Source: Thermoplasmata archaeon
GTDB taxonomy: Archaea; Thermoplasmatota; Thermoplasmata; Lutacidiplasmatales; UBA184
Direction of reading: 5' to 3'
DNA length: 64,000 bases
Assembly (NCBI GenBank): GCA_027314165.1
Contig: DAHVCH010000005.1
Coordinates: 62,001-126,000 of the forward strand
In this document: piece after piece, positions 11,274 to 29,105 of the stretch
How the letters are laid out: every line of letters begins with the position of its first letter
Numbering within the stretch: position 1 is the stretch's first letter
Notes under the pieces: generated by a model
Told to the model about the DNA's origin: nothing
The model's input: the letters and a program-made list of their open reading frames with translations, nothing else
The model's database searches: none
Made by a program: the position numbers and the translations under genes

Positions 11274-14200
11274 TTGGTCGAGTACGGAAAGCTCCTCGCC
11301 CTCGTCCTCCCCGCCCTCATGGTCCTCTCAGGAGCGGCGCTCGCCGCGGTCCAACCCGCCGTCCCTACCCTTCCCCAGAGCGAGCGTTCGTCCGGACCCT
11401 GGAGCTCCGAGCACGGCCTCTCCGCGCCCTCGACCACGCCCTCGTTGGGACCGACCCCCTCCCCGCCGTCTCCCGCCGGACCGGGGAACCCGTCACCCTC
11501 AGCCTTTCCCCCTCGCTCCGCGACGGGAGCCCCCTCCACCGAGATCAACGGCAGCGTCCACGTCAACGGGAGCTTCACCGCCTCCTCGACCTACCTTGAC
11601 GGCACCGTCCACATCGTGGGGTCGACCCTCACCTCGAACCTGACGCAAACGGTCGGATGGGCGGAGTACGGGGCCACCCTGGTGACCGGCTCGATGCGCG
11701 TCGTGAGCCTCCCGGGGGACAGCGCCCCGATCTTCGCCTCCCGCGGAGGAGGCAGCCTCTGGGTCCAGCCTTCGCCGCTCAACGCCACCGCCTTCAACAT
11801 CCTGGAGGGGGACATCAGCCTCGGGGACCCCTCGACCGGGGACACCTTCCTGATGTCCACGAACGGCGTGAACATCACGATCGACGCGGGACAGGCGGGA
11901 GGGTTCTACAGCTACGGGGGCGGGACGAACATCAACGTGGGCAACGCCTCCCAGGTGCTGAACTACGCGAACAGCTCCGGCGCCCTCGTCATCCACTGCT
12001 CGGTCCCCCTCTTCTGCCCCACGACGGGCATCCAGATCGCCCCGGGAACCCTCTACGTCTCCGCCTACTGCGTCGTCCTCCTGGGCTGCCTCTCGGTCCC
12101 GGTCTCCTCCATCACCTGGCCCGCCGGCTCGCACTTCACGATCCTCGGGTCGACGACCACGAGCGGCTCGGGCATGACCGCCGCGTTGCCGGATTCCCGG
12201 ATGGACATCGAGGTGCCCGAGGGTTCCGGGGTGAACATCTCGATGACCCCGGACCTTGGAGCGCCGCAGCTCACGGTCTCGCCCGGGGTGACCTACCCCG
12301 CTCTGGTCTCCACGCTCGGTCGAGTCGCGGTCTCCCACGGAGAAGCGCTCAACGCGTCGGTGACGGTCCACGGGACGTTCTCGGCCTCGGGGATCGTGGA
12401 GAACGGCGGCACATTCTACAACGACGGAGGGCTCACGATCCAAGGCGAGCTCGACAGCCAGGGCGAGCAGCTGTTCAAGCACAAGCTGCAGCTCGGACCC
12501 GAGATCTCCATCCGGACCTTCCCGGGCGCGGGCGTCCTGACGAGCGGGCTCACCACCATCGATTCGGACGTCACCATCCAGGGTACCACGAACGCCTCAG
12601 GCAACCTCACGATCACCGGGACCATGACCCAGAACGCGACGCTGATCCACATCCAAGGGAACCTCTCCCTGAACGGCACCATGACCGCGTCGGGCTCGGT
12701 CGGGACCGACGGCACGACAGCCTTCTCGGGGAACGTCTCCAGTTCGGGTCTCATCTCGCTCCCGCACGCGTTCATGGACGGGACCTTCTCGATGACGGGA
12801 GGCTCGTTCGTGGGCGTCGGCAGCACCCTTCTCTCGGGGAGCAGCGTCGGGGTCGGATGGACGTGGGTCAACGGCACGACCTACTCCGTCTCGGGTTCCG
12901 CCTGGCTGAACGGCACCGTGGAGGTCAACCGCTCGATCACGGTCACGGGCTCCGCCGAGCTTCTGACCGCCCCCGGGGGGGCCCTTCGCCTGACCGCGAC
13001 CGTCCTGATGGGCGGGGGGGCCGGCTACTCTCCCTGGACCTCCAAGGTCGAAGGCAGCGTGCTGGTCCGGGGCGCGTCCTTCTCGAACGGCACCTCGACG
13101 TTCAACGGGACCACGGTCTCCTTCCCGTCGGGACTGAAGGTCGTGGGAGCGGTCCAGGCCCAAGGGAACGTGACGGTGCTCGGGACCACATCCTTCACGG
13201 GCGCGGTCACCTCCTCCGGGATCGCGTCGTTCCCCGGCATGTCGCTCACGGGAACCTTCGGGCTCTCCTCGGTCGGGGGCTCGGTCAACGGGACCGGCAC
13301 GAGCGACGTGGCGGGGAACGTCACGCTGGACGGGACGTTGACGGTGGCCCACGGAGTGTTCGCGGAGAACGGGAGCTCCGTCATCACGGGGAACCTCCGG
13401 ATGACCGGGTCGGTCCTGGTGACCGGCCGCTCGACGCTGGCCACCGCCGGAGGCACGACGCTCTCGCTCTTCGGCGACATCGACCTGGCGAACGCGGCCC
13501 AGGTCCTCGGGAACGTGAACACCACGGGCAACGTCACGATCTCGGGATCGGCCTACCTCTCGAGCGCGAAGGTGACCATCTCCGGTTCCCTCCAGGCGGA
13601 CGGGTGGGTCTACTCGCGCGGGGTCGTCGACCTGTCGGGCACGGCGGACTTCCAGGGCCAGGTCTTCACGCTGGGGCACACGCAGCTCCCGGGGCTCGAC
13701 GTCGCGGGGAACTACACGCTGAGCTCCGGCGAGTTCGACCTCAAGGGGCAGATCGCCCTCACGGGCTACACGAAGTCCTCCGGCATGATCGTCGCCAACG
13801 CCTCGGGCTACTTCGTGGATGGCCCGAGCTACATCGTCGGTCACACGGTCGCGACGGGCAGCGCGACCGTCTGGGGGACCAGCCTCACCGTGGGATACGT
13901 GACCCTCGGCCCCGGGGCGAAGCTCGGGGGATACACGGTGGTCCATGGCGGCATGTCGGCCGGCGGCCTCCCTCTCAGCGGCACGGTCATCCTCCCGAAC
14001 GACACGGTCGTCTTCCCGCAGGGGGCGAACATCACGGGCTCGATACGCCAGTTCGGGCTTCTGACGAGCCAGGGCGGGGTGATGTCGTTCTACGGCCAGA
14101 GCATCGTGAACGGGACCGTCGTCAGCCAAGCCGCGCCGTCCCTCCAGGGACCCCTCTTGACCACCCTGCTAGGCAGCCCCTTCGCCTTCACGCTCGGCGC

Positions 14201-14651
14201 GGAGTTCTTCGCATTCTTCGCCGCGCTCCTGGTCACGGTCGTGATCACGGGCCTCGAGCTGTTCCGGGTCGGCTGGAAGCACCGAGTAGCGTTCACAGAG
14301 AGGGAGCGACGCGCCGTCGCCAGGCTCTGGCCGGGAGCCGTCCTGTCCGCCATCCTGCTGCTCGCCGGGCTCTTCACCGGCTCCATCGGTGGCCTTGCCG
14401 TGGGGCAAGGCATCGCAAGCGGGGCGCTCGCGCCCCGGACCGATTCGGTCGCGGCGGTCTTCGTCGCCGGGAGCGCGCTGATGTTCCTGGGCGCGCTGGT
14501 CTGGGTCCTGCACCGAGCGCACTATGCGAGGGTCCGTCGGAGAGAGCAGCTCCCGCCACCGCCCGCGATGGGGACGTGGTCAGCGCCAAGCTCGCCCGCC
14601 GCCACCGGGCCTGTTCCCCCCGCCCCTCCCCCAGGGCAGGCGCCCCGGTAG
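11274..14651 (+). CDS. Giant repetitive cell-surface protein with three C-terminal membrane segments
   Basis: 1125 aa. N-terminal signal peptide (LLALVLPALMVLSGAALA), a Pro/Ser-rich stretch, then about 850 residues of short Gly/Thr/Val/Ser repeats with recurring GT-V-GN-T-SG patterns, as expected for a stacked beta-solenoid (bactofilin-like or adhesin-like). It is packed with N-x-S/T sequons. Three hydrophobic helices follow (about 960-985, 1008-1035 and 1048-1070), then a Pro-rich cytoplasmic tail. The only in-frame start after the stop at 11226 is TTG at 11274. Likely an S-layer-associated or adhesive surface protein; no exact family is recognised. Confidence 0.7.
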   Translation: MVEYGKLLALVLPALMVLSGAALAAVQPAVPTLPQSERSSGPWSSEHGLSAPSTTPSLGPTPSPPSPAGPGNPSPSAFPPRSATGAPSTEINGSVHVNGSFTASSTYLDGTVHIVGSTLTSNLTQTVGWAEYGATLVTGSMRVVSLPGDSAPIFASRGGGSLWVQPSPLNATAFNILEGDISLGDPSTGDTFLMSTNGVNITIDAGQAGGFYSYGGGTNINVGNASQVLNYANSSGALVIHCSVPLFCPTTGIQIAPGTLYVSAYCVVLLGCLSVPVSSITWPAGSHFTILGSTTTSGSGMTAALPDSRMDIEVPEGSGVNISMTPDLGAPQLTVSPGVTYPALVSTLGRVAVSHGEALNASVTVHGTFSASGIVENGGTFYNDGGLTIQGELDSQGEQLFKHKLQLGPEISIRTFPGAGVLTSGLTTIDSDVTIQGTTNASGNLTITGTMTQNATLIHIQGNLSLNGTMTASGSVGTDGTTAFSGNVSSSGLISLPHAFMDGTFSMTGGSFVGVGSTLLSGSSVGVGWTWVNGTTYSVSGSAWLNGTVEVNRSITVTGSAELLTAPGGALRLTATVLMGGGAGYSPWTSKVEGSVLVRGASFSNGTSTFNGTTVSFPSGLKVVGAVQAQGNVTVLGTTSFTGAVTSSGIASFPGMSLTGTFGLSSVGGSVNGTGTSDVAGNVTLDGTLTVAHGVFAENGSSVITGNLRMTGSVLVTGRSTLATAGGTTLSLFGDIDLANAAQVLGNVNTTGNVTISGSAYLSSAKVTISGSLQADGWVYSRGVVDLSGTADFQGQVFTLGHTQLPGLDVAGNYTLSSGEFDLKGQIALTGYTKSSGMIVANASGYFVDGPSYIVGHTVATGSATVWGTSLTVGYVTLGPGAKLGGYTVVHGGMSAGGLPLSGTVILPNDTVVFPQGANITGSIRQFGLLTSQGGVMSFYGQSIVNGTVVSQAAPSLQGPLLTTLLGSPFAFTLGAEFFAFFAALLVTVVITGLELFRVGWKHRVAFTERERRAVARLWPGAVLSAILLLAGLFTGSIGGLAVGQGIASGALAPRTDSVAAVFVAGSALMFLGALVWVLHRAHYARVRRREQLPPPPAMGTWSAPSSPAATGPVPPAPPPGQAPR

Positions 14652-18717: not shown

Positions 18718-20172
18718 ATGGCCACCCCCTCCGGGTCGTTGGAACTCGAGACGGAGGACCTGCCCGTGGCGCGAGCCTCCCTCGTGGTCTTGGAGGAGGC
18801 TCGAAAGAGGCTCGAGGCCCGGCACCTGCCGGGGGTCCCTGCGAGCTTCCGCCTCTCCGAGCTTCGCGCGGAGCTGCTGAAGGCGCGGGTCTTCCAGGAC
18901 CCCACACGGCTGCTCGTGCGTCTCAAGCGTCGCGGGCTGCTCGACGAGAGCTTCGCGCCGCGGGGCGACAAGGTCTTCGTCGCGACCCACCTTCCCGACC
19001 TTCTCGCGCTGCTCCGGGAGGGGGTCGAGCGTCTTTCCGCCCCCCCTCCGGTGGCGCTGCAGCCGCCCCCGGACGAGTCGCTCGAGATCCGCGAGATGGA
19101 CTCGGTCTTCTTCCGTCACCTGAGGGACGTGCTCCAGGACCGGCTCGAGGAGACGCTGGAGTTCGCGAGGGGCTTCGACCTCGCCGCCCTCCTCGCCTAC
19201 ACCCGGCAGCTCTTCGGGGAGGAGCTCGGGCTCGACCCGGCCCTCGCGCTCCTCCAGCAGTACGCCCTCGCGGACGTGCCGCTCATCGCCCCGAGCGGAC
19301 GGGCGACGGGGACGACGGGTTTCCACCTGGCCCTCTTCGGACCGCCGGGGACCGGCAAGACCTTCGCGATCGACGACCTGGTCCGGGGGAACTCGCGGAG
19401 CGGGGTCCCTCCCCACGGCCTTCCCGGACGGAACCGCTACTGCGGAGGGATCACCCCGGCCCAGTTCCTCCGCGTCGGTTCGTTCTACCGGGGGAGGACG
19501 TTCAATTTCATCGTCCCGGAGTTCAACGACTGGTTCAAGTACAAAGGGATGGTCGAGCCGCTAAAGCTCGTCATGGAGCAGCGGGAGGTCAAGTGGGAGA
19601 CGACGTACGGGACCGTCGGACCCTACGTGTTCCGCTCGTACTTCACGGTCAATTACAACGTCCGGGTGTTGGGGAACGCGTGGGAGTCTACCATCGGCGA
19701 CCCGAACTTTGCGGCGCTCGAGGACCGCATGCTGCTCCGGTTCCACCTCATGACCCGCGAACGGTTCCGGGCCGTGGAGCAGAGCGCCGAGCGGCTGGAG
19801 CTGGGGGAGATCGACTTCCACCTGGCCCGCCAGGTGCAGGACCATCTGTCGCTCGTCTACGCGATCCAGACCCAGCATCCCCTCGTCCGCCGGTGGCGGG
19901 CGAAGGGCGTGGCGCTGCAGCCCGGCCTCTACCGGACGCTGAGGGAGGTCTCGGAGAAGGCGCTCGCCCGGACCGCGAGCCCCAAGTTCTCCCCCCGGCT
20001 GAAGAGCCGGGCGGTGAAGCTCGCCGCGGCCGGCGCGCTGGTGGGGTACTTCAAGCATGAGCAGAAGGCGTCGGCGACCCTTCCGGTCGGGAAGGACGAG
20101 GAGGCCCTCGCTCGACTCTTTTACCAGCAGGAGATCTCCGCCCGAGAAGGGCGGAGCTTCGCGGCGTGGTAA
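18718..20172 (+). CDS. AAA+ ATPase with N-terminal winged-helix-like domain
   Basis: 484 aa. A winged-helix-like N-terminus (FRLSELRAELLKARV ... LVRLKRRGLL) is followed by a helical region and an AAA+ core with Walker A GPPGTGKT (208-215). The strand where Walker B should be reads FNFIVPEFNDW, lacking the usual Asp-Glu pair. A sensor-1-like YFTVNYN follows. The C-terminus is helical. No named family is recognised; MCM/McrB-type DNA-remodelling ATPases are the nearest idea. ATG at 18718 fits the shared promoter. It is divergent from the Hjc-like nuclease, which suggests a DNA-processing pair. Confidence 0.7.
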   Translation: MATPSGSLELETEDLPVARASLVVLEEARKRLEARHLPGVPASFRLSELRAELLKARVFQDPTRLLVRLKRRGLLDESFAPRGDKVFVATHLPDLLALLREGVERLSAPPPVALQPPPDESLEIREMDSVFFRHLRDVLQDRLEETLEFARGFDLAALLAYTRQLFGEELGLDPALALLQQYALADVPLIAPSGRATGTTGFHLALFGPPGTGKTFAIDDLVRGNSRSGVPPHGLPGRNRYCGGITPAQFLRVGSFYRGRTFNFIVPEFNDWFKYKGMVEPLKLVMEQREVKWETTYGTVGPYVFRSYFTVNYNVRVLGNAWESTIGDPNFAALEDRMLLRFHLMTRERFRAVEQSAERLELGEIDFHLARQVQDHLSLVYAIQTQHPLVRRWRAKGVALQPGLYRTLREVSEKALARTASPKFSPRLKSRAVKLAAAGALVGYFKHEQKASATLPVGKDEEALARLFYQQEISAREGRSFAAW

Positions 20173-20689
20173 GGGGCCGGGCCACGGCCCCAGGTTCGTT
20201 CCCACGGCCCCCGCGGCCGGCTACAAGCTCGCGGACCGGGTCGCGATCGAGTCCGCGACGCTCCAGGTGCTCCGTCGGCACCGCGGCCTCGTCCCGACCC
20301 AGGACGCCCTCTGGCGCCAGGTGGCCTCCAAACTGCGCCGGCAGGACCCCCCGCTCCGCACGGGCCGAAAGAGGATGCGGGCGCTGCTCGCGACCTCCAG
20401 CCTGGTCCACCTCGACGTCCGGTACTCCCGTCGGCCCACCCGGGGGGCGCTCGTCGCCTGCCCCGTCTGCTTCGCGCCTCTGAAGCCGCGGCAGAACTCG
20501 ACCCTGTGGGGGGACTCCGTCATCGTGGGGTACCGATGCACGGTCTGCCCCTTCTGGACCCCGATCCAGCGGCGGGTCCCGGCCCAGTACACCTTCCGCG
20601 CGACCTTCCACCCGGGGACGCTCGACCAGCCCTCCAAGGACGAGGGAGGCCTCGAGCGGAACGGTCGCGAGGCGGACGACGAGGACTGA
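20057..20689 (+). CDS. Winged-helix-like protein with zinc ribbon; start unclear
   Basis: Convincing coding sequence begins about 20222 (YKLADRVAIESATLQVLRRH) and includes a helix-rich DNA-binding-like part, then a zinc ribbon with CPVC and CTVC. The only in-frame ATG (20057) lies 116 nt inside the ATPase gene and its extra residues look like a shadow (MSRRRRRPFRSG). No ATG, GTG or TTG occurs between the ATPase stop and the conserved part, so either an unusual start or a local indel is likely. It is probably co-transcribed with the ATPase. Confidence 0.6.
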   Translation: MSRRRRRPFRSGRTRRPSLDSFTSRRSPPEKGGASRRGKGPGHGPRFVPTAPAAGYKLADRVAIESATLQVLRRHRGLVPTQDALWRQVASKLRRQDPPLRTGRKRMRALLATSSLVHLDVRYSRRPTRGALVACPVCFAPLKPRQNSTLWGDSVIVGYRCTVCPFWTPIQRRVPAQYTFRATFHPGTLDQPSKDEGGLERNGREADDED

Positions 20690-20709: not shown

Positions 20710-21729
20710 CTACCCCTGCTTCTGCGCGTTCATCACGGCGTTCCGCGCCGCGTCGACCACCAGCATCTCCTGCGTTCCGTTCTTCTTCTGGTAGTTCAGG
20801 TACCACACCGGGGCGTGCAGGAGCTCGCCATCGGCGACGTTCACGTCGGTGTTCAGCTTCTGGATCATCCGGTGCTGGTGCCGGGCCTTGACGGCCTGGA
20901 GCTCGACGACCATGTTCTTGGCCTGGAATTTGGCGTCATCCTCGCTCACGTCCCCGTTCAGCACGGGGATCCCGTTCGGGGCGCGGCGCTTGTCGAAGGG
21001 GATGCGCGAGGTCAGGTCGAACTGGTACTCCTTGGGCTGGTAGGCCCCGAGCCCCTTCACGGCGATGATCGGGAACTGGTACTCTCCGGAGAGCTCCCCG
21101 GCCCGCAGGGCCATGTTCGCGCCTCCGCCTCCCATCGCCTCGCCCAGCATCATGCCGCCGAAGAGCGCCCCGGAGTTCCCTCCTCCCCGGCCGCCGCCGC
21201 CCATGAGAGCGGCCGCGGCGAGCCCGCCTCCGATCTCGGCCGCCTCGACCCCGGCGTCCTCGTAGGTGTAGTGGGTGACCGCGCTCGAGGGGATGATCCA
21301 GAAGGGCACCATGTGGACCTTCGCCTCGAGCAGCTTCGAGGTCTCGAAGTCGTGCCGGTGGAAGAGGCCCTGGCTGTTCATCCACTTGTGGACGGCCTCC
21401 ATCGCCTGCTGCTGGTCCAGCACCTGCGGGACGAGCATCGAGTGGCTCTGGATCGCCTTGAGGCCGGCGCCGGAGATGGTGACGCTGGTGCCGCAGTACT
21501 CGCAGGTGATGACCGCGTCGTTCCCGGAGGGATTGAGCGGCGCCCCGCACTGCTTGCACTTGAGGCTCTTCAGGTCGATCGTGGGAGCCGCCGCGGGCGG
21601 CGGGGGCGGGGGGACCATGCCGCCACCGGGGGCCCCACCCGGGCCACCGGCCGCGGAAAGCGGACGCCCGCACCGCGCGCAGAAGGCGGCCCCGTCGGGG
21701 TTGGGCGACCCGCAGGAGTTGCAGAACAT
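20710..21729 (-). CDS. Double zinc-ribbon protein of the SPFH cassette
   Basis: 339 aa. An N-terminal zinc ribbon (CNSCG ... CARCG), Pro/Gly linker, second ribbon (CKQCG ... CEYCG, about 58-80), then a mixed alpha/beta domain with WIIPSSAVTHYTYEDAG, a glycine-rich insertion (about 175-205) and QFDLTSRIPFDKR. Function unknown. It is the last gene of a four-gene minus-strand set. The ribbon pattern is like that of its neighbours, which suggests the proteins share a scaffold or metal-dependent assembly rather than a catalytic role. Confidence 0.75.
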   Translation of the reverse strand: MFCNSCGSPNPDGAAFCARCGRPLSAAGGPGGAPGGGMVPPPPPPAAAPTIDLKSLKCKQCGAPLNPSGNDAVITCEYCGTSVTISGAGLKAIQSHSMLVPQVLDQQQAMEAVHKWMNSQGLFHRHDFETSKLLEAKVHMVPFWIIPSSAVTHYTYEDAGVEAAEIGGGLAAAALMGGGGRGGGNSGALFGGMMLGEAMGGGGANMALRAGELSGEYQFPIIAVKGLGAYQPKEYQFDLTSRIPFDKRRAPNGIPVLNGDVSEDDAKFQAKNMVVELQAVKARHQHRMIQKLNTDVNVADGELLHAPVWYLNYQKKNGTQEMLVVDAARNAVMNAQKQG

Positions 21730-21756
21730 GGCCGGTCCCCCTCCGAACCCTGTTCT

Positions 21757-22941
21757 CTAACTGCGGGGGGCCCCGCAGCTCTGGCAGAACTTGCCGGTCC
21801 CCGCCGGCTGTCCGCATTTCGGGCAGACCGCTGGGGTGGCGGGGGCGGGAGGAGCGTTCGGCGCGCCGCAGTTCATGCAGAACTTTCCCGTGCCCGCCGG
21901 CTGCCCGCACTTCGGACACGTGGGGCCCGCGGCGGCGGGTGGCGGGGCGGTCAGGCTGTAGCCGCACGAGGGGCAGAACTTCGTCCCGCCGGGGATCAGC
22001 TGGCCGCACTTCGGACAGGGGGACGACGGCCCGCCCATGCCTCCGCCCGGAGCCATGCCCTGGTAGGCGGGGCCCATGGCGCCCGCCATCCCGTACCCCA
22101 TGCCCATGCCGGCCCCCATGCCGACGCCGGCGCCCATCAGGGTGCCGGCGCCGCCCGGGTTCGCGGCGGCGGTGGTCATGGCCTGCCCGGCCTGGTACTG
22201 CATGTAGTTCACGCCCAGCACGCCCATCGTGCTCCGCGTGTCGATGGCCTTCTGGACCTCGTCGGGCACGCTGATCGAGAGCCCCTGGAGGCGGTTGACC
22301 TCGATCCCGTAGGCGTCGAAGTAGTCCGGGGCCTTGCCCAGGACCAGCTGCTCGATGGTCTGCAGGTTCGCGGCCAGGTCGGCGACCCCGATGCCCTGCT
22401 CCTTCGCCTGCCCGAGGGCGGCGTACACGAGAAGGACCATCTGGTCGCGGGTCCGGTCGTCGATGTCGGCCGAGGACTCGCTCCCGAACGTCCCGACGAA
22501 CTGGGTGATGAAGTTGTCCGGATGGGAGACGCGCCAGCGGTAGTCGCCGAAGACCCGCAGGTTCACCAGGCCGAAGTCCTTGTCGCGGAAGACGTAGGGC
22601 TCCTTCGAGCCGAACTTCGCGTCGAAGAAGCGGCGCTGGAGGTAGTAGACCTCGGCCTGCTGCTGGACGCCCGACAGCTTCTGGACGAGCGTCCCGACGA
22701 CCGGGGCGTTGATCGAGGTGAGCGCGTACCGGTCGGGGCGGTCGATGTAGGCCAGGACCTTCCCGTCGCGGAAGAACACCGCGTACTCGTCCTCGCGGAC
22801 GACGACGTTGTCGTTGAGCCGGATGTTGCGGGGGACCCGCCACATCACGTTGGGGCCCTTGAACGTGTCCTCCCAGATGATCGTGGTCGACCCAAAGAGG
22901 CTCCCTCCCGTGGCGGGGGGCGGTGCGCTGCGGTTGAACAT
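21757..22941 (-). CDS. SPFH-domain (virion-core-like) protein with three C-terminal zinc ribbons
   Basis: 394 aa. Residues 20-250 match the SPFH/YdjI-like family (IIWEDTFKGPNVMWRVPRN, NVVVREDEYAVFFRDGKVL, YGIEVNRLQGLSISVPDEVQ). A Met/Gly-rich linker follows (about 275-310) and three nearly identical zinc ribbons (CPKCGQ-GTKFC and two CPKCGQPAGTGKFC repeats). SPFH proteins form membrane-associated oligomeric rings. The neighbours, one a four-helix membrane protein, support a membrane microdomain or protein quality-control role; this is inference. Confidence 0.85.
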   Translation of the reverse strand: MFNRSAPPPATGGSLFGSTTIIWEDTFKGPNVMWRVPRNIRLNDNVVVREDEYAVFFRDGKVLAYIDRPDRYALTSINAPVVGTLVQKLSGVQQQAEVYYLQRRFFDAKFGSKEPYVFRDKDFGLVNLRVFGDYRWRVSHPDNFITQFVGTFGSESSADIDDRTRDQMVLLVYAALGQAKEQGIGVADLAANLQTIEQLVLGKAPDYFDAYGIEVNRLQGLSISVPDEVQKAIDTRSTMGVLGVNYMQYQAGQAMTTAAANPGGAGTLMGAGVGMGAGMGMGYGMAGAMGPAYQGMAPGGGMGGPSSPCPKCGQLIPGGTKFCPSCGYSLTAPPPAAAGPTCPKCGQPAGTGKFCMNCGAPNAPPAPATPAVCPKCGQPAGTGKFCQSCGAPRS

Positions 22942-23024
22942 GGGTGCTCTTCTTCCTCCTCGAACTGGTGATCTTCCTTTCCTGTCGTGTCCTGATCGGT
23001 CCTAGCGGGGGCCGGTCCATCCTC

Positions 23025-23885
23025 CTACTGGAGGATCCCCTCCACAGCTTCCATCCGCTCGCTGAAGGAGACCTCGAGGGCCTTCAGGTTGGCCCGGAGG
23101 GTGTCGCACGTGCTGTTGATCTGACCGGAGTCCTTGGTCGAGACGGCCTGCTGGAGCGAGGCCAGGGTCTGCAGGACCTGGTCGCCCGAGGCGACGAACG
23201 TCCAGTCGCGCTGGTAGAGGTTGTCCAGCGTCTGCGGGGTGACCTTGATCGTCGAGGAGATGCCGCTGTAGCCCCCCTCCGCGTGGCGGATCTGGCCCTC
23301 CAGTCGCTGGAACTCGCTGCGGAGCCCTCCCAGAGCGACCAGTCCGGCCATGACCCCGTCCCGGGCCATCCCGGAGCGGAGGCTGTCGATCTGGGTCATC
23401 GCGGTCACCAGCCGGTCGGCCACCTGGATCCGCAGGAGCGAATCGGCCGCCCGGATGTCCTCGCCCTGACGGTACCCGCGGAAGCCGGGAATGAGCAGCT
23501 GGAGCTTCTTCAGGATCCCGCGGTCCTGGTCCACCCGGCCGCGGATGTCGTTGCCCGCGGGGGAGGAGGGCGCGACGGGCGGAGCGCCGTAGGGGTTGGG
23601 GCCCGAGGGGCCGACCGCGGCGGGCGGCGGCGGGGGAGGGGGAGGCGGAGAGGAGCCGTAGCCCGGGTCCTGCGGGGCCGACACCGCCGGAGGGGGGGCT
23701 GGGGCGGAGGAGGCCGGGGGGGTCCCCGCGGCCGCGGAAGGGGCCGCAGGCGCGGGCGCCGCGGCGCTCCCGACGGCGCTCCCGCATCCGGGGCAGAACT
23801 TGGCGCCCGCACCGAGGGGGCCGCCACACTGGGAGCAGAACTTCGGTCCGGTCGTCGCTGACAGTTCGGGTTTGCTCATGGCCAT
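23025..23885 (-). CDS. Zinc-ribbon protein with Pro-rich linker and helical domain
   Basis: 286 aa. One N-terminal zinc ribbon (CSQCGGPLG ... CPGCGS), an Ala/Pro-rich linker of about 80 residues including a run of nine Pro, then about 170 residues of helices (RVDQDRGILKKLQLLIPGF ... RLEGQIRHAEGGY) typical of an oligomerising helical protein. No family name is recognised. It is 84 nt upstream of the SPFH gene and 11 nt downstream of the membrane protein gene in one transcription unit. Confidence 0.7.
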   Translation of the reverse strand: MAMSKPELSATTGPKFCSQCGGPLGAGAKFCPGCGSAVGSAAAPAPAAPSAAAGTPPASSAPAPPPAVSAPQDPGYGSSPPPPPPPPPAAVGPSGPNPYGAPPVAPSSPAGNDIRGRVDQDRGILKKLQLLIPGFRGYRQGEDIRAADSLLRIQVADRLVTAMTQIDSLRSGMARDGVMAGLVALGGLRSEFQRLEGQIRHAEGGYSGISSTIKVTPQTLDNLYQRDWTFVASGDQVLQTLASLQQAVSTKDSGQINSTCDTLRANLKALEVSFSERMEAVEGILQ

Positions 23886-23895
23886 GAGAGATCTC

Positions 23896-24474
23896 CTACC
23901 TCGCGGGGGGATTGGAACGGGGGTCGTTCGCCGAAGGGGCGCCCGTGGCCCCGGTCGTGACGCCGGTCTTCGCGCGCCACGCGGCGCGGTTGGACTCCCG
24001 GGTGAGGTCGCTCGCCCGCCCCTGGAGCTGCCAGCGCATGTAGAGAAGCCCGGCCACGGCGATGAAGAGGATGATGATGATGTAGACCAGCCGGATCGAG
24101 TCGAAGGTCACCTGGCAGGCCGCCCCGCCCGTGCCGTTCGCCGGGCAGCTCCCGCCGTGGAAGGCCCCGTCGGGCGAGACCAGGCCCGCGCCCAGGAGGA
24201 CCGCGACCCCGAACCAGAAGGAGCCGGCCGACGCCGCGCGCGAGATGGCGGGATCCCGGCTCATGGACTGGACCAACACCGCGAGGACCGAGACGATGAG
24301 CCCCAGGAACCCGATCGCGACCAGCCCGAGGAAGTGGTTGTTGACCCCGGGGAAGGAGATGTAGATGGCGATGCCCACCAGGACGAGGATCGCGACCAGG
24401 ACCCCGGCGATGGCGAAGCCACTGATGGTGGCCCCGGTCTTGGCGACCTCGGCCTCGGCCTTGAGATTGCTCAT
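23896..24474 (-). CDS. Four-helix membrane protein of the SPFH cassette
   Basis: 192 aa with four hydrophobic segments (about 15-40, 48-68, 85-100 and 128-148), a Cys pair in the large loop (SCPANGTGGAAC) that could form an external disulfide, and a basic C-terminal tail. The family is not recognised. As the first gene of the cassette it is the natural membrane anchor for the soluble zinc-ribbon proteins that follow. Confidence 0.7.
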   Translation of the reverse strand: MSNLKAEAEVAKTGATISGFAIAGVLVAILVLVGIAIYISFPGVNNHFLGLVAIGFLGLIVSVLAVLVQSMSRDPAISRAASAGSFWFGVAVLLGAGLVSPDGAFHGGSCPANGTGGAACQVTFDSIRLVYIIIILFIAVAGLLYMRWQLQGRASDLTRESNRAAWRAKTGVTTGATGAPSANDPRSNPPAR

Positions 24475-24574: not shown

Positions 24575-27500
24575 CTATAACCTCGCGTCCTCGTCACGGG
24601 ACTCGCGTCGGGAGTCCCGGCCGCCGCTGCGGCCTCCCCCGTGCTTCCCGCGGGTCGAGACGGTCCCGGAGTCGTCGTCCCGGGAGGATACGGCGAGCAG
24701 CGCGAGGGGCATCTCGATCCGGTCCTGACCGCCCGGGATGCTGGCCTCCTGCACCGTGGGGGCGGAAGGCAGGGTGAGCGTCAGGGAGCAGCGCGGGCAG
24801 CTGCCGAACTGCACCACGCAGTGCTGACAGACCGTGGCGCCGCAGGTGTGGCGGTACTGCGCGAGCCCTCCGCAGCCGGAACACCGGGCTCCCTGGGACG
24901 CGGAACTGAGGTCGGAGACCGGGCCCGACGGCCGGCCGGACGGCGGGGACGGGGGGGGTCCTCCGACGGACGAGGCGACGGGGGCGGCGGTGTTCGGGAG
25001 CGCGGGCCCCCCGGACGGCGGCATGGACTGGGAGGAGGCCTGCTGCGACGAGTAGGGGGCGGGGGGCGAGCCGTAGCCTCCCTGGGAGGGCGTCGTGCCG
25101 TAGGAGGAGGAGTACGAGGAGGAGGAGTACGAGGAGGAGCTCCCCGGGGGGTTCCCCTGGGAGGGAGGGGAGGAGGGCGAGCTCTGCTGCTGCGGGAGGG
25201 GGGTCGAGGGCGGAGGGGGGGCGGGGCGCGCCCCGTACTCGGTGATCCGCAGGGAGGGGAGCGGAGCGTGGACGGCCGAGCCGACGCTCTCCACGGCCTT
25301 GATGAGACGCGCCTTGTAGAGCCCGACGCGGAGGTTCCGGACGAGCCGGAACGGGGTCCGCTCCTCCGGGGGAAGTCCAAGGGCCCGGCGGGCGAGCTCC
25401 TCGACATCGGGGGTGAGCGAGAGGTTCTCGGGCCGGATGTCCATCTCCAGGACCGCCCGCATGTAGCCGAAGAGCCGCTGGAGCTGGGCGAGCGTGTAGT
25501 TGGGCGGGGAGAGGATGGCCACGTCGGCGAGCGTGAGCCCGCGCTTCTCCACGATCTCCGCGCGCTGCTCGAGCGCGGCGTTGATCAGGTGGTAGCTCGC
25601 GCTCTCCAGGTCCTTCAGCTCCTGCTCGGGCAGGTCCCGGACCTCGACGTCGACGTTGCGGGAGATGGCGCGGGTGACCGGGTCGAGCAGGTCGAAGGGG
25701 ATGTGCAGGGTGAGGAACAGGTCGTTCTTGGTGATCGGACGGTTGAGCTTCGCCTCCAGGAGGAGCGCCTCGCGCCCGAACCCCTCGATCTGGCGGTCCC
25801 GGATCTTCTGCTGGGCGAGCTTGCGGCCCTCCTTCGCCGCCTCGAAACCGTCGTCGACCTTGAGCGCGGCCTCGAAGCTCTGCAGCCCCTCCTCCGGACG
25901 TCCCAGCTCGAGCAGCACGCGACCCCGGCTCGCGAGGGCGTACTTGTTCTCCGGGGCGATCCGCAAGGCCTGCTCGTAGGCCGTGAGCGCCTCGTGGGAG
26001 TGCTGGAGCTTCTCGTGGACGCTCCCGGCCTTCATGAACAGGTCGGCGTTCTGGCTGTCGACGGAGAGCGCCCGGCCGTAGGCGTCCGCCGCCTCGCTCC
26101 ACTTCTCCTGCTTGCTCTGCAGCTCTCCCAGGCGCACCAGGAGCAGGACGTTCGCGGGGTGCTTCTCCAGCCCCTTCATGCAGGCGTCGACGGCGCGGGG
26201 TAGCGACCCCAGGCCCGCCTGCCTCGGCGAGGTGGAGGTAGGTCTCCGGTTGGGCGGAGAGGGCGGTCAGGTTCTGCTCGAGGAAGTCGCGCGCCTTCGC
26301 GTGCTCCCCCATCTCCAGCAGGGCCCGGACGAACCAGAGGGCGATCTCGGTGTCCCCGCTCTTCCTCTGCGAGAGGTCCTGGAAGATGTCGAGCGCCTCC
26401 TGGAACCGCTCCAGGCGGAAGGCGATCCGGCCCCGCATGAGGAGGACCCGGTTCCCGAGCTCCTGGCCGACCTCGGCCGGGAAGGGGGGGCTCCCGAAGA
26501 CCTCGAGGGTCCCGACCGCGTCCGCGAAGCGGCTCTCCTTCTCCTCGACGCCCGCCTTCCGGTAGGCGACCTCCAGCTTCACCTCGGGAGAGGCCGCGAC
26601 GGCCTTCTCGTAGCTCTGCAGGGCGTCGTCGGTCTTGCCCAGCTCGAGGGCCAGGTCCCCGTGGCTCAGCCAGAGCTGCGCCAAGCTCCCCTTCTCGGGC
26701 GGGTGGGAGAGGAGGTTGGTCAGGCACTCGTAGGCGTCGATCTTCTCCCCGCGCGCCAGGTGGACGCGGTACTTCTCCTCCCAGACCGTGTTGTTGTCCG
26801 GTTCGAGCAGCAGGATGGCCTTGAGGGAGTAGATCACTTCCGTGTCGCGCTGGAGCGACCGGTAGATGTCGGCCCTCAGCTTCCAGGGCCGGAGGTCGTA
26901 GGCGTCCGTCCGTAGCAGGGTGTCGACCGCGGTCGCAGCCTCGGTGAAGCGTCCCGCGAGCATCAGCGTCTCGGCGAGCGAGAGCGTCCCGAGCTTGTTC
27001 TGCGGGTCCAGCTGGATGCCCTTCTGGTAGTACGGGAGCGCGTCGGCGTAGGCCCCCTGCTCCTTCAGCGCGTCCGCCACCTCGAAGTAGGCGACGGGGT
27101 CGCGCTCCTGCGGGGAGAGCGCGTTCTTCAGGACCTGGACACCCTCGGCCTTCCGTCCGAGCCGGAGCAGGAGCCGTCCCCGGCGCCGGAGGAAGAGCGG
27201 GTTCTGCGGCTCGCGCTGCAGCAGGATCTCGACGTAGTGCAGGGCCTTGGCGTCCTGATTGAGGGCCGCGAGGACCTCCTCCATCCCCCAGATGAGGTCC
27301 GTGTCCTCCCGACCGAGCTCGATGGACTTCGCGTAGGCCTGCTCCGCCTCGGCGTTCCGGGAGATCTCGCGGAGGGTGTGGCCGAGCTCCTTGAAGATGT
27401 CCCCGCGCGTCGCGTTCGCGGGGTCGGCCAGGAACTCCTTGTACCCGTCCACGGCCCGGTCCACGTTCGAGAGCAGCTTCGCCGCTCGCGCCGCCCCGAG

Positions 27501-29105
27501 CAGGCTCACGTTGCGGAACTCGGTGGAGAGGCTCGAGCGCTCGTAGCTCCGGAGAGCCTCGGTGGCGAGGCCCTTCCTCTCCGGCGCCTTCTCGGCCGTG
27601 CGGTACGCCCGCGAGAGGTAGAGGTTCCCGCGCTCCAGCGCGACGTCGTAGCGCGAGGGGTCCTTCTCGAAGATCCGGTCCAGGAGGGCGGGGATCTCGT
27701 CGGTCCGCCCCATCGTCTGGAGGAGGGCCTTCTTCTGGAGCAGGATGGCGATGTTGTCCGGAGTGATCCGGAGGATGTGGTCGTAGACCTGGAGCGACTC
27801 GTCCCTTTGCCCCAGGGAGGTGAGCGCCTGGGCCAGCTCCTCGGCGGCCGAGGTGTCGGAAGCGTTCTGCGCGAGGATGGCCCTGGAGAAGAACACGACG
27901 TAGGGGGCCTTGCGGTTCTGCTTGGCGAGGCGCAGCCCCTTGCGGAACTCCTCCACCTCGGTGGGGTGGGCCTGGACGATCTCCTGGTAGACGCGTAGGG
28001 CCCCCTCGAGCTGGCCGGTCGCCGAGAGCAGCTCGCCCAGGGTCCGCTCGGCCTCCAGGTTGTGAGGGGAGAGGACGAGGAGCGCCTCGCAGGCCTCCAT
28101 CGCGACGTCCTTGCGGTCCTGCTTGAGCGCGAGCGTCCTCAACGCCTGCAGGTTCGCGAGGTTCCGGGGGTCGAGCTCCTTGATCCTCCGCCGGACGTCG
28201 ACCAGGAGGTCCGTCTGGAGGTTCATCGTCTCCAGTGTCGAGGCGAGCTCGAGCAGGAGCGCGGGGTCGACCTCCGCCCGCTTCTCCAGGAGGGAGCGGT
28301 AGAGCGCGAACGCCTCGTCGTTCTTCTGGAGCGCGAGGAGGACCCGGGCCTTCAGGAAGAGGTAGCGGGGGTCGTCCGGCTTGAGCTGGATGGCCTTCTC
28401 GAGCGAGTCGAGGGCCGGGGCGAGGTCGCCGGAGGAGGCGAGGAGGTTGGCCTTCGTGAAGTGGAGCTCGGGGTCGGAGGGGTTGGACTGCAGGAGCTGG
28501 TCGCACGTCTCGGTGGCCTGCTTGACCCCGCCCAACGTCATGGCGAGGGCGAGCTTCACGCGGAGCGCCTTCGGGTGTCCCGGGATGAGCTTCAGCGCCC
28601 GGTCCACGTACTGGGTGCTCGTCGCGTCCAGCTGCTGGGCCTGGAGGTAGCACTCGACGGCGTCCTGGGGCCGGCCCAGGATCTTCAGCGCGTCGCCCTT
28701 GCTCGCCCAGATCGCCTTGTCATGCGGGTTGACCGACAAGGCCCGGTCCAGGAGGTTCAGCACCTGGTCCAGGTTCTGGTTCATCGAGAGGAGGATCATC
28801 GCCTTGTGCTGGAGCGCCGAGGAGGAGTTCGGGGAGAACGACAGCGCGAACTCCACGGCCTGGAGCGCCTGGTCGCCGATCGACAGGCGGTAGAACCCGA
28901 GCGCGGTCCGGTCGAGGAGGTCCCCCGCCTCCTGGCGCTGGTAGGAGAGCTCGTTGAACCGGTCGCGCGCGAGGTTCAGGACCTCCTTGAGCGCGTCCAC
29001 TTGGCGGTTGAAGTCCCGCACCTGCTGGGCGGCTTCGGCCGACTCGAACCACTGCCGCGCCTTGGCCAGGGCAGGCGTGGCTGGCGTGCCCGCGGGCTGA
29101 ACCAT
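24575..29105 (-). CDS. Giant TPR protein with zinc-finger tail; apparent +1 frameshift
   Basis: About 1510 aa when joined. From the ATG at 29105 roughly 960 residues of tandem TPR repeats run in one frame to about 26222 (PETYLHLAEAG), then continue in another frame as LPRAVDACMKGLEKHP with no lost TPR spacing. One extra G in a GGCGGG tract near 26214-26223 explains the shift. After the TPRs come a helical domain, a Ser/Gly/Pro-rich linker and a zinc finger (CSGCGG ... CQHC ... CPRC). The TATA (CCTTAATCTC) is 31 nt upstream. Likely a large assembly scaffold; its zinc tail and position link it to the SPFH cassette. Confidence 0.75.

Follow-up and report, generated by a model that had tools for sequence, protein, structure and literature searches.

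Organization of the cassette

This study concerns a cassette of four genes in a Thermoplasmata archaeon (assembly GCA_027314165.1), whose draft genome comprises 2.54 Mb in 96 contigs and is 86% complete. We analyzed a 64,000-nucleotide (nt) stretch of contig DAHVCH010000005.1, hereafter called the window, to which coordinates refer unless another locus is named. The genes, designated MEM, HEL, SPFH, and DZR, are consecutive open reading frames (ORFs) on the minus strand (20710-24474), separated by 10 nt (MEM-HEL), 83 nt (HEL-SPFH), and 27 nt (SPFH-DZR). Their adjacency on one strand, noted in an original prediction for this DNA, was confirmed. Lengths below are in amino acids (aa).

MEM, 23896-24474, minus strand: 192 aa, multi-transmembrane (TM) protein and probable membrane partner, recognized from its ORF, its hydropathy, and same-family homologues at the same place
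HEL, 23025-23885, minus strand: 286 aa, N-terminal zinc ribbon (residues ~16-38), Pro/Ala linker, and 170-aa helical core
SPFH, 21757-22941, minus strand: 394 aa, Band_7_1 domain (YdjI-like), Gly/Met-rich linker, and three C-terminal zinc ribbons
DZR, 20710-21729, minus strand: 339 aa, two zinc ribbons and a YpeB-like domain; YdjG-like

SPFH matches the Band_7_1 family (PF13421) with an E value of 1e-37. It is the sole match to this family in the window genome; among the control genomes, the family was also matched in Bacillus subtilis. The C-terminal ribbons of SPFH occupy residues ~306 to 391. The original prediction described all three as near-identical, which, as read from the sequence, holds for ribbons 2 and 3 but less so for ribbon 1. 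Six CxxC pairs, corresponding to three ribbons, are found in 64 of 67 SPFH proteins of at least 330 aa, and four pairs in the other three. DZR matches the families Zn_Ribbon_1 (E 7e-10) and DZR (E 2e-9), in agreement with its description as a double-ribbon protein. Family searches and reading of the sequence give a total of six ribbons distributed over HEL, SPFH, and DZR.

The hydropathy profile of MEM contains peaks at residues ~13-35, 43-60, and 121-145 and a weaker one at ~80-95. The four-helix membrane protein originally proposed is therefore plausible, with three clear hydrophobic stretches and an uncertain fourth. MEM matches no Pfam family above the cut-off, and this includes LiaI/LiaF-TM. 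Searches against PHROGs gave weak matches only, and a literature search limited to open-licence papers returned no earlier description of this archaeal set.

Conservation of the HEL-SPFH pair

We searched 61 genomes, that of the window together with 60 relatives. Of these, 49 contain SPFH and 50 contain HEL; 11 have neither. In 49 of the 49 genomes with both genes, HEL lies just upstream of SPFH, as judged by comparing coordinate lists by eye. The sole genome with HEL only (G009) carries it at most 134 bases from a contig end. A scan of GTDB with an alignment of nine HEL cores identified 242 stretches that matched its patterns, 185 of which encode a relative. Among the best 80 loci, which were kept, SPFH is directly downstream of HEL in 78, and the remaining two (L125 and L159) stop at contig edges. 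The median spacing between HEL and SPFH in the GTDB loci is 17 nt. Record titles of the loci include Thermoplasmata, Methanomassiliicoccales, Methanoperedens, ANME-2, Methanosarcinales, Aciduliprofundum, Methanocorpusculum, and one "Thaumarchaeota". Because relatives keep the gene order, the arrangement is not a product of chance, and the co-occurrence check suggested with the original prediction came out in favor of a conserved set.

Features of the GTDB loci were scored with simple hydropathy and a crude home-made gene caller. Of the 75 loci with sufficient sequence, 61 have a gene of <200 aa with two or more predicted TM helices before HEL, and in 44 of 65 loci one of the first two genes 3' of SPFH encodes a ribbon protein. 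DZR was found in 44 of the 61 genomes, including 37 of 37 in the window's family. In L080, the gene before HEL encodes a LiaF-TM protein (PF22570, E 2e-11); this domain has been described as belonging to phage-shock networks (PMC11237479). Small TM proteins of other lineages matched no family above the cut-off; one from L174 weakly resembled NfeD (E 0.008, below the cut-off), which was not relied on. Identification of MEM as a LiaF homologue was unsupported (hhalign 0.5%), though the partner in L080 is a LiaF-TM protein.

Two variations in layout were observed. In L110, L115, and L117 the cassette is reshuffled, with a four-CxxC protein ahead of HEL-SPFH and a small protein of 2-3 TM helices behind. 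In L085, a divergent class-level cassette, the small TM gene is preceded by two extra genes, whose CxxC products measure 516 and 308 aa.

The ribbon of the window HEL is a clear CxxC...CxxC, yet it scores just under the Pfam cut-off (23.2 vs 25 bits). A ribbon is not conserved among HEL proteins: 46 of the 78 HEL genes called lack CxxC, although gene starts, and hence these counts, may be off owing to the crude gene caller. These counts bear on the idea that the cassette serves in zinc sensing or storage, in which the ribbons would be the main point and SPFH an anchor. Six ribbons over three proteins speak for such a function; the HEL loci that lack CxxC speak against it, as does the fact that no recurring metal transporter or regulator was seen among the loci listed. 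Moreover, such ribbons usually serve a structural role or bind proteins. We consider a zinc-centered role very improbable.

Families of the DZR and HEL proteins

Band_7_1-type SPFH genes on bacterial plasmids were found in 21 records, several of which then encode a double-ribbon protein. In Enterococcus gallinarum, SPFH comes first, followed by the double-ribbon protein and then a TPM protein (TPM E 8e-20), a set that corresponds to the content of YdjI-YdjG-YdjH. A profile of six bacterial SPFH-adjacent proteins, which stood in for B. subtilis YdjG, aligned with the archaeal DZR profile (37 sequences) over 283 columns (hhalign 99.6%, E 3.8e-24). The match persisted when the ribbons were removed (98.5%, E 2.4e-15), while four control comparisons (HEL, SPFH, reversed profile) gave <2%. 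By these profile comparisons, DZR is a homologue of the YdjG-like proteins whose genes lie next to Band_7_1 SPFH genes in bacteria. The AlphaFold model of DZR (predicted local distance difference test score (pLDDT) 81.8) has as its top match the C-terminal domain of YpeB (5boi; Z 6.3, root-mean-square deviation (rmsd) 2.3, 69 aligned), a Z score that is weak by itself and with which copper amine oxidase N-domains tie (Z ~6). The YpeB-like match agrees with the published make-up of YdjG, which comprises two zinc ribbons, a TM segment, and a domain related to YpeB (PMC11237479).

The original prediction knew of no described system with this set of genes. That statement no longer holds for two of the four, since SPFH and DZR correspond, in archaea, to YdjI and YdjG from the pspA-ydjGHI operon of B. 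subtilis (PMC8581546, PMC11237479). It had also taken the recurrence of ribbons across different folds to suggest a multi-subunit membrane machine. The resemblance of the set to a membrane-associated scaffold lends weight to the machine; the ribbons themselves partly reflect kinship with YdjI and YdjG.

Several plasmid loci have other arrangements around SPFH. The Band_7_1 SPFH of a Vibrio plasmid (L183 3929-5017) ends in a GYF_2 domain (E 4e-17) and not in zinc ribbons. On a Paracoccus ferrooxidans plasmid (L187), genes for a toxic anion resistance protein, DUF2927, SPFH, and a YdjG-like protein form a same-strand row. On a Novosphingobium plasmid (L185), SPFH is followed by genes for DUF4178, DUF350, and polyamine aminopropyltransferase, which resembles the polyamine-PspA operons in PMC11237479.

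HEL is the new part of the cassette: a deeply conserved, unstudied helical family encoded directly upstream of SPFH. The AlphaFold model of its core (181 aa; pLDDT 85.7, predicted template modeling score (pTM) 0.80) consists of a short N-terminal helix followed by four longer ones (residues 9-26, 39-70, 77-95, 112-144, and 148-180). With its ribbon, the window HEL is thus the zinc-ribbon helical protein originally described. Residues 21-40 of the core are its most conserved stretch (mean 0.81, KKLQLLIPGFRGYRQGEDIR), the start of which is net positive and moderately amphipathic. HEL matches no Pfam family above the cut-off, with N-terminal ribbon models coming near theirs, and sequence searches of the PDB yielded no credible relative for HEL or for the SPFH and DZR domains. 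Foldseek returned nothing for the HEL core at E 0.001; the best VIA match, IncA (Z 12.0, rmsd 3.2, 141 aligned), is at a level common for helical bundles. PspA chains are missing from the fold matches listed, which carries no weight for or against a shared fold. Matches of HEL to the NCBIfam model LIMLP_15305 fall below its cut-off (E 5e-7 for the window, 1.5e-17 for L076), and the model has matches in 0 of 14 control genomes. A tblastn search of the plasmid collection with a HEL core gave zero matches.

PspA (PF04012) was found in 0 of the 61 genomes by a search that was positive in 9 of 14 controls. The corresponding Snf7 search gave 0 of 61 above the cut-off and one match, below the cut-off, among the 14 controls; it is not used as evidence. 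The possibility that HEL is itself a PspA was rejected on sequence by hhalign (0.3%). The five PspA rows in this comparison include four real ones, that from L195 being a wrong-strand ORF.

These results also bear on whether the cassette encodes a membrane-remodeling or division machine in which HEL would be an analogue of ESCRT-III. HEL is helical and has a conserved basic N-terminal segment, and links between ESCRT and SPFH genes have been described in methanogens (PMC10936438). The cassette contains no Vps4-type ATPase, however, and HEL shows no kinship to PspA in sequence. The hairpins of PspA are, in addition, longer than the HEL helices. We rate an ESCRT-III-like machine as quite unlikely.

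The original prediction raised the possibility that a large gene upstream of MEM belongs to the set.

TPR-repeat giant, 24575-29105, minus strand: zinc-ribbon-like tail, frameshifted near 26180; lineage-specific neighbor, non-core

This gene is split near 26180 in the window assembly, and its counterpart in G001, a relative of the same genus (L063 2144-6664, ~99% identity), is an intact frame of 1506 aa. Counted by eye, 22 of 25 loci of the window's family have the giant or its tail upstream of MEM, compared with 0 of 14 loci from outside the family. The linkage is therefore confined to that family, which rules out the giant as a general core part and makes it a lineage-specific neighbor; within the family, it may be co-transcribed with the cassette. 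On the other side, the cassette is faced by two plus-strand genes (18718-20689), one for an AAA-like ATPase and, overlapping it downstream, one for a Cys-containing protein. Neither product matches a family above the cut-off, and both genes recur beside the cassette in most loci of the window's family. Farther away, a plus-strand gene (11274-14651) encodes an 1125-aa protein with an apparent signal peptide, C-terminal hydrophobic stretches, and many short GTVxVxGSxxxSG repeats that are bactofilin-like by eye.

The proteins encoded in and around the cassette are pertinent to one further explanation, that it forms a platform for membrane-protein assembly or quality control, much as HflK/C and prohibitins corral FtsH, with the ribbon proteins acting as chaperones. 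Interaction with the FtsH protease has been reported for some SPFH subfamilies (PMC2636767), and the band-7 and TPM partners of PspA have been suggested to act like chaperones (PMC11237479). Against this stand the findings that no cassette protein matches a protease or chaperone family above the cut-off and that no recurring protease was seen beside HEL-SPFH among the loci listed. We judge such a platform unlikely.

A proposed membrane scaffold and its relation to known systems

Our preferred explanation, held with moderate confidence, is that the cassette represents the archaeal form of the YdjG/YdjI membrane scaffold of bacteria, one that lacks PspA. Its role is probably in envelope stress, with HEL as the soluble effector; the make-up of the cassette is established by the results above, and its function is an inference. 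B. subtilis YdjI is predicted to be soluble without a membrane anchor, and the membrane localization of both PspA and YdjI is lost without YdjG or YdjH (PMC8581546). By analogy, we propose that MEM and DZR would bring archaeal SPFH, which has no predicted TM helix, to the cytoplasmic membrane at its inner face, much as YdjG and YdjH do for YdjI. There, SPFH would oligomerize, and its triple ribbons could provide docking points for HEL and DZR. HEL would occupy the place of PspA in the operon and act as the soluble effector in its stead, and the N-terminal segment of HEL that is basic and most conserved (KKLQLLIPGFRGYR) may contact lipid or a partner. The HEL bundle would then assemble on the SPFH platform and stabilize the stressed membrane.

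Several observations weigh against this proposal. PspA is found above the cut-off in 3 of 10 other HEL genomes (two Methanoperedens and one ANME-2), and one more has a match below the cut-off; HEL is therefore not a simple substitute for PspA. Thus the cassette mostly occurs without PspA, yet coexistence is possible. HEL gave only 0.3% with the PspA proteins of HEL-bearing genomes and does not match PF04012, and the amphipathicity of its N-terminus is modest. No TPM (YdjH) match was found in the cassette or the neighboring genes scanned, a genome-wide search not having been made. The window DZR has no TM helix (maximum 1.15), only a Gly/Ala-rich stretch; C-terminal TM helices are absent from 28 of 37 aligned DZR proteins, the window's included, and present in 9. 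In genus g3, DZR sits on a different contig from the cassette. Compared with the small TM proteins found in relatives, among them LiaF-like ones, the window MEM gave only 0.5%.

What is new is HEL and the PspA-less setting; SPFH and DZR are of known kinds. In surveys, PspA (or ESCRT-III) is taken to be the core of membrane-stress systems. If the cassette performs this function too, many archaea without recognizable PspA would have a membrane-stress system after all. HEL, which is deeply conserved, would become a specific component open to testing, and the platform of SPFH and YdjG would appear older and more general than its use by PspA. More speculatively, HEL could be a new membrane-protective scaffold, unrelated to PspA or ESCRT-III, that euryarchaea use on an ancient SPFH/zinc-ribbon platform. 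This would constitute a phage-shock-like system whose universal core effector was replaced or never used, an idea that we regard as possible and, at present, doubtful.

Among known families and systems, LIMLP_15305 of Leptospira is matched by the HEL core, but every HEL match lies far under its equivalog cut-off of 210 bits. The Lia system (LiaI/LiaF with LiaH, a PspA homologue) likewise has a small multi-TM gene directly before a helical soluble protein, and the L080 cassette includes a LiaF-TM protein. It differs in that the window MEM is not detectably LiaF-like and HEL is not a PspA homologue. The closest archaeal precedent is provided by the Meth_adaptin ESCRT loci, which also place a zinc-ribbon SPFH in a membrane-remodeling context; those of Methanobacteriales encode an SPFH protein with a coiled coil and ribbon (PMC10936438). 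The cassette has a different set of partners and contains no recognized Vps4 or ESCRT-III. Bacterial plasmids of Vibrio, Paracoccus, Tsukamurella, Comamonas, and Enterococcus carry adjacent SPFH and YdjG-like genes, as the archaeal cassette does, with no PspA annotated alongside. They differ from the cassette in that tblastn of the plasmid collection detected no HEL. Compared with B. subtilis pspA-ydjGHI, the archaeal cassette has the HEL family in the operon instead of PspA or a TPM protein (YdjH), DZR of the window's family has no TM helices, and archaeal SPFH has three ribbons. The two systems share a Band_7_1 SPFH with C-terminal zinc ribbon, a YdjG-like protein with two ribbons and a YpeB-like domain, a separate membrane partner, and a helical soluble protein encoded in the same operon.

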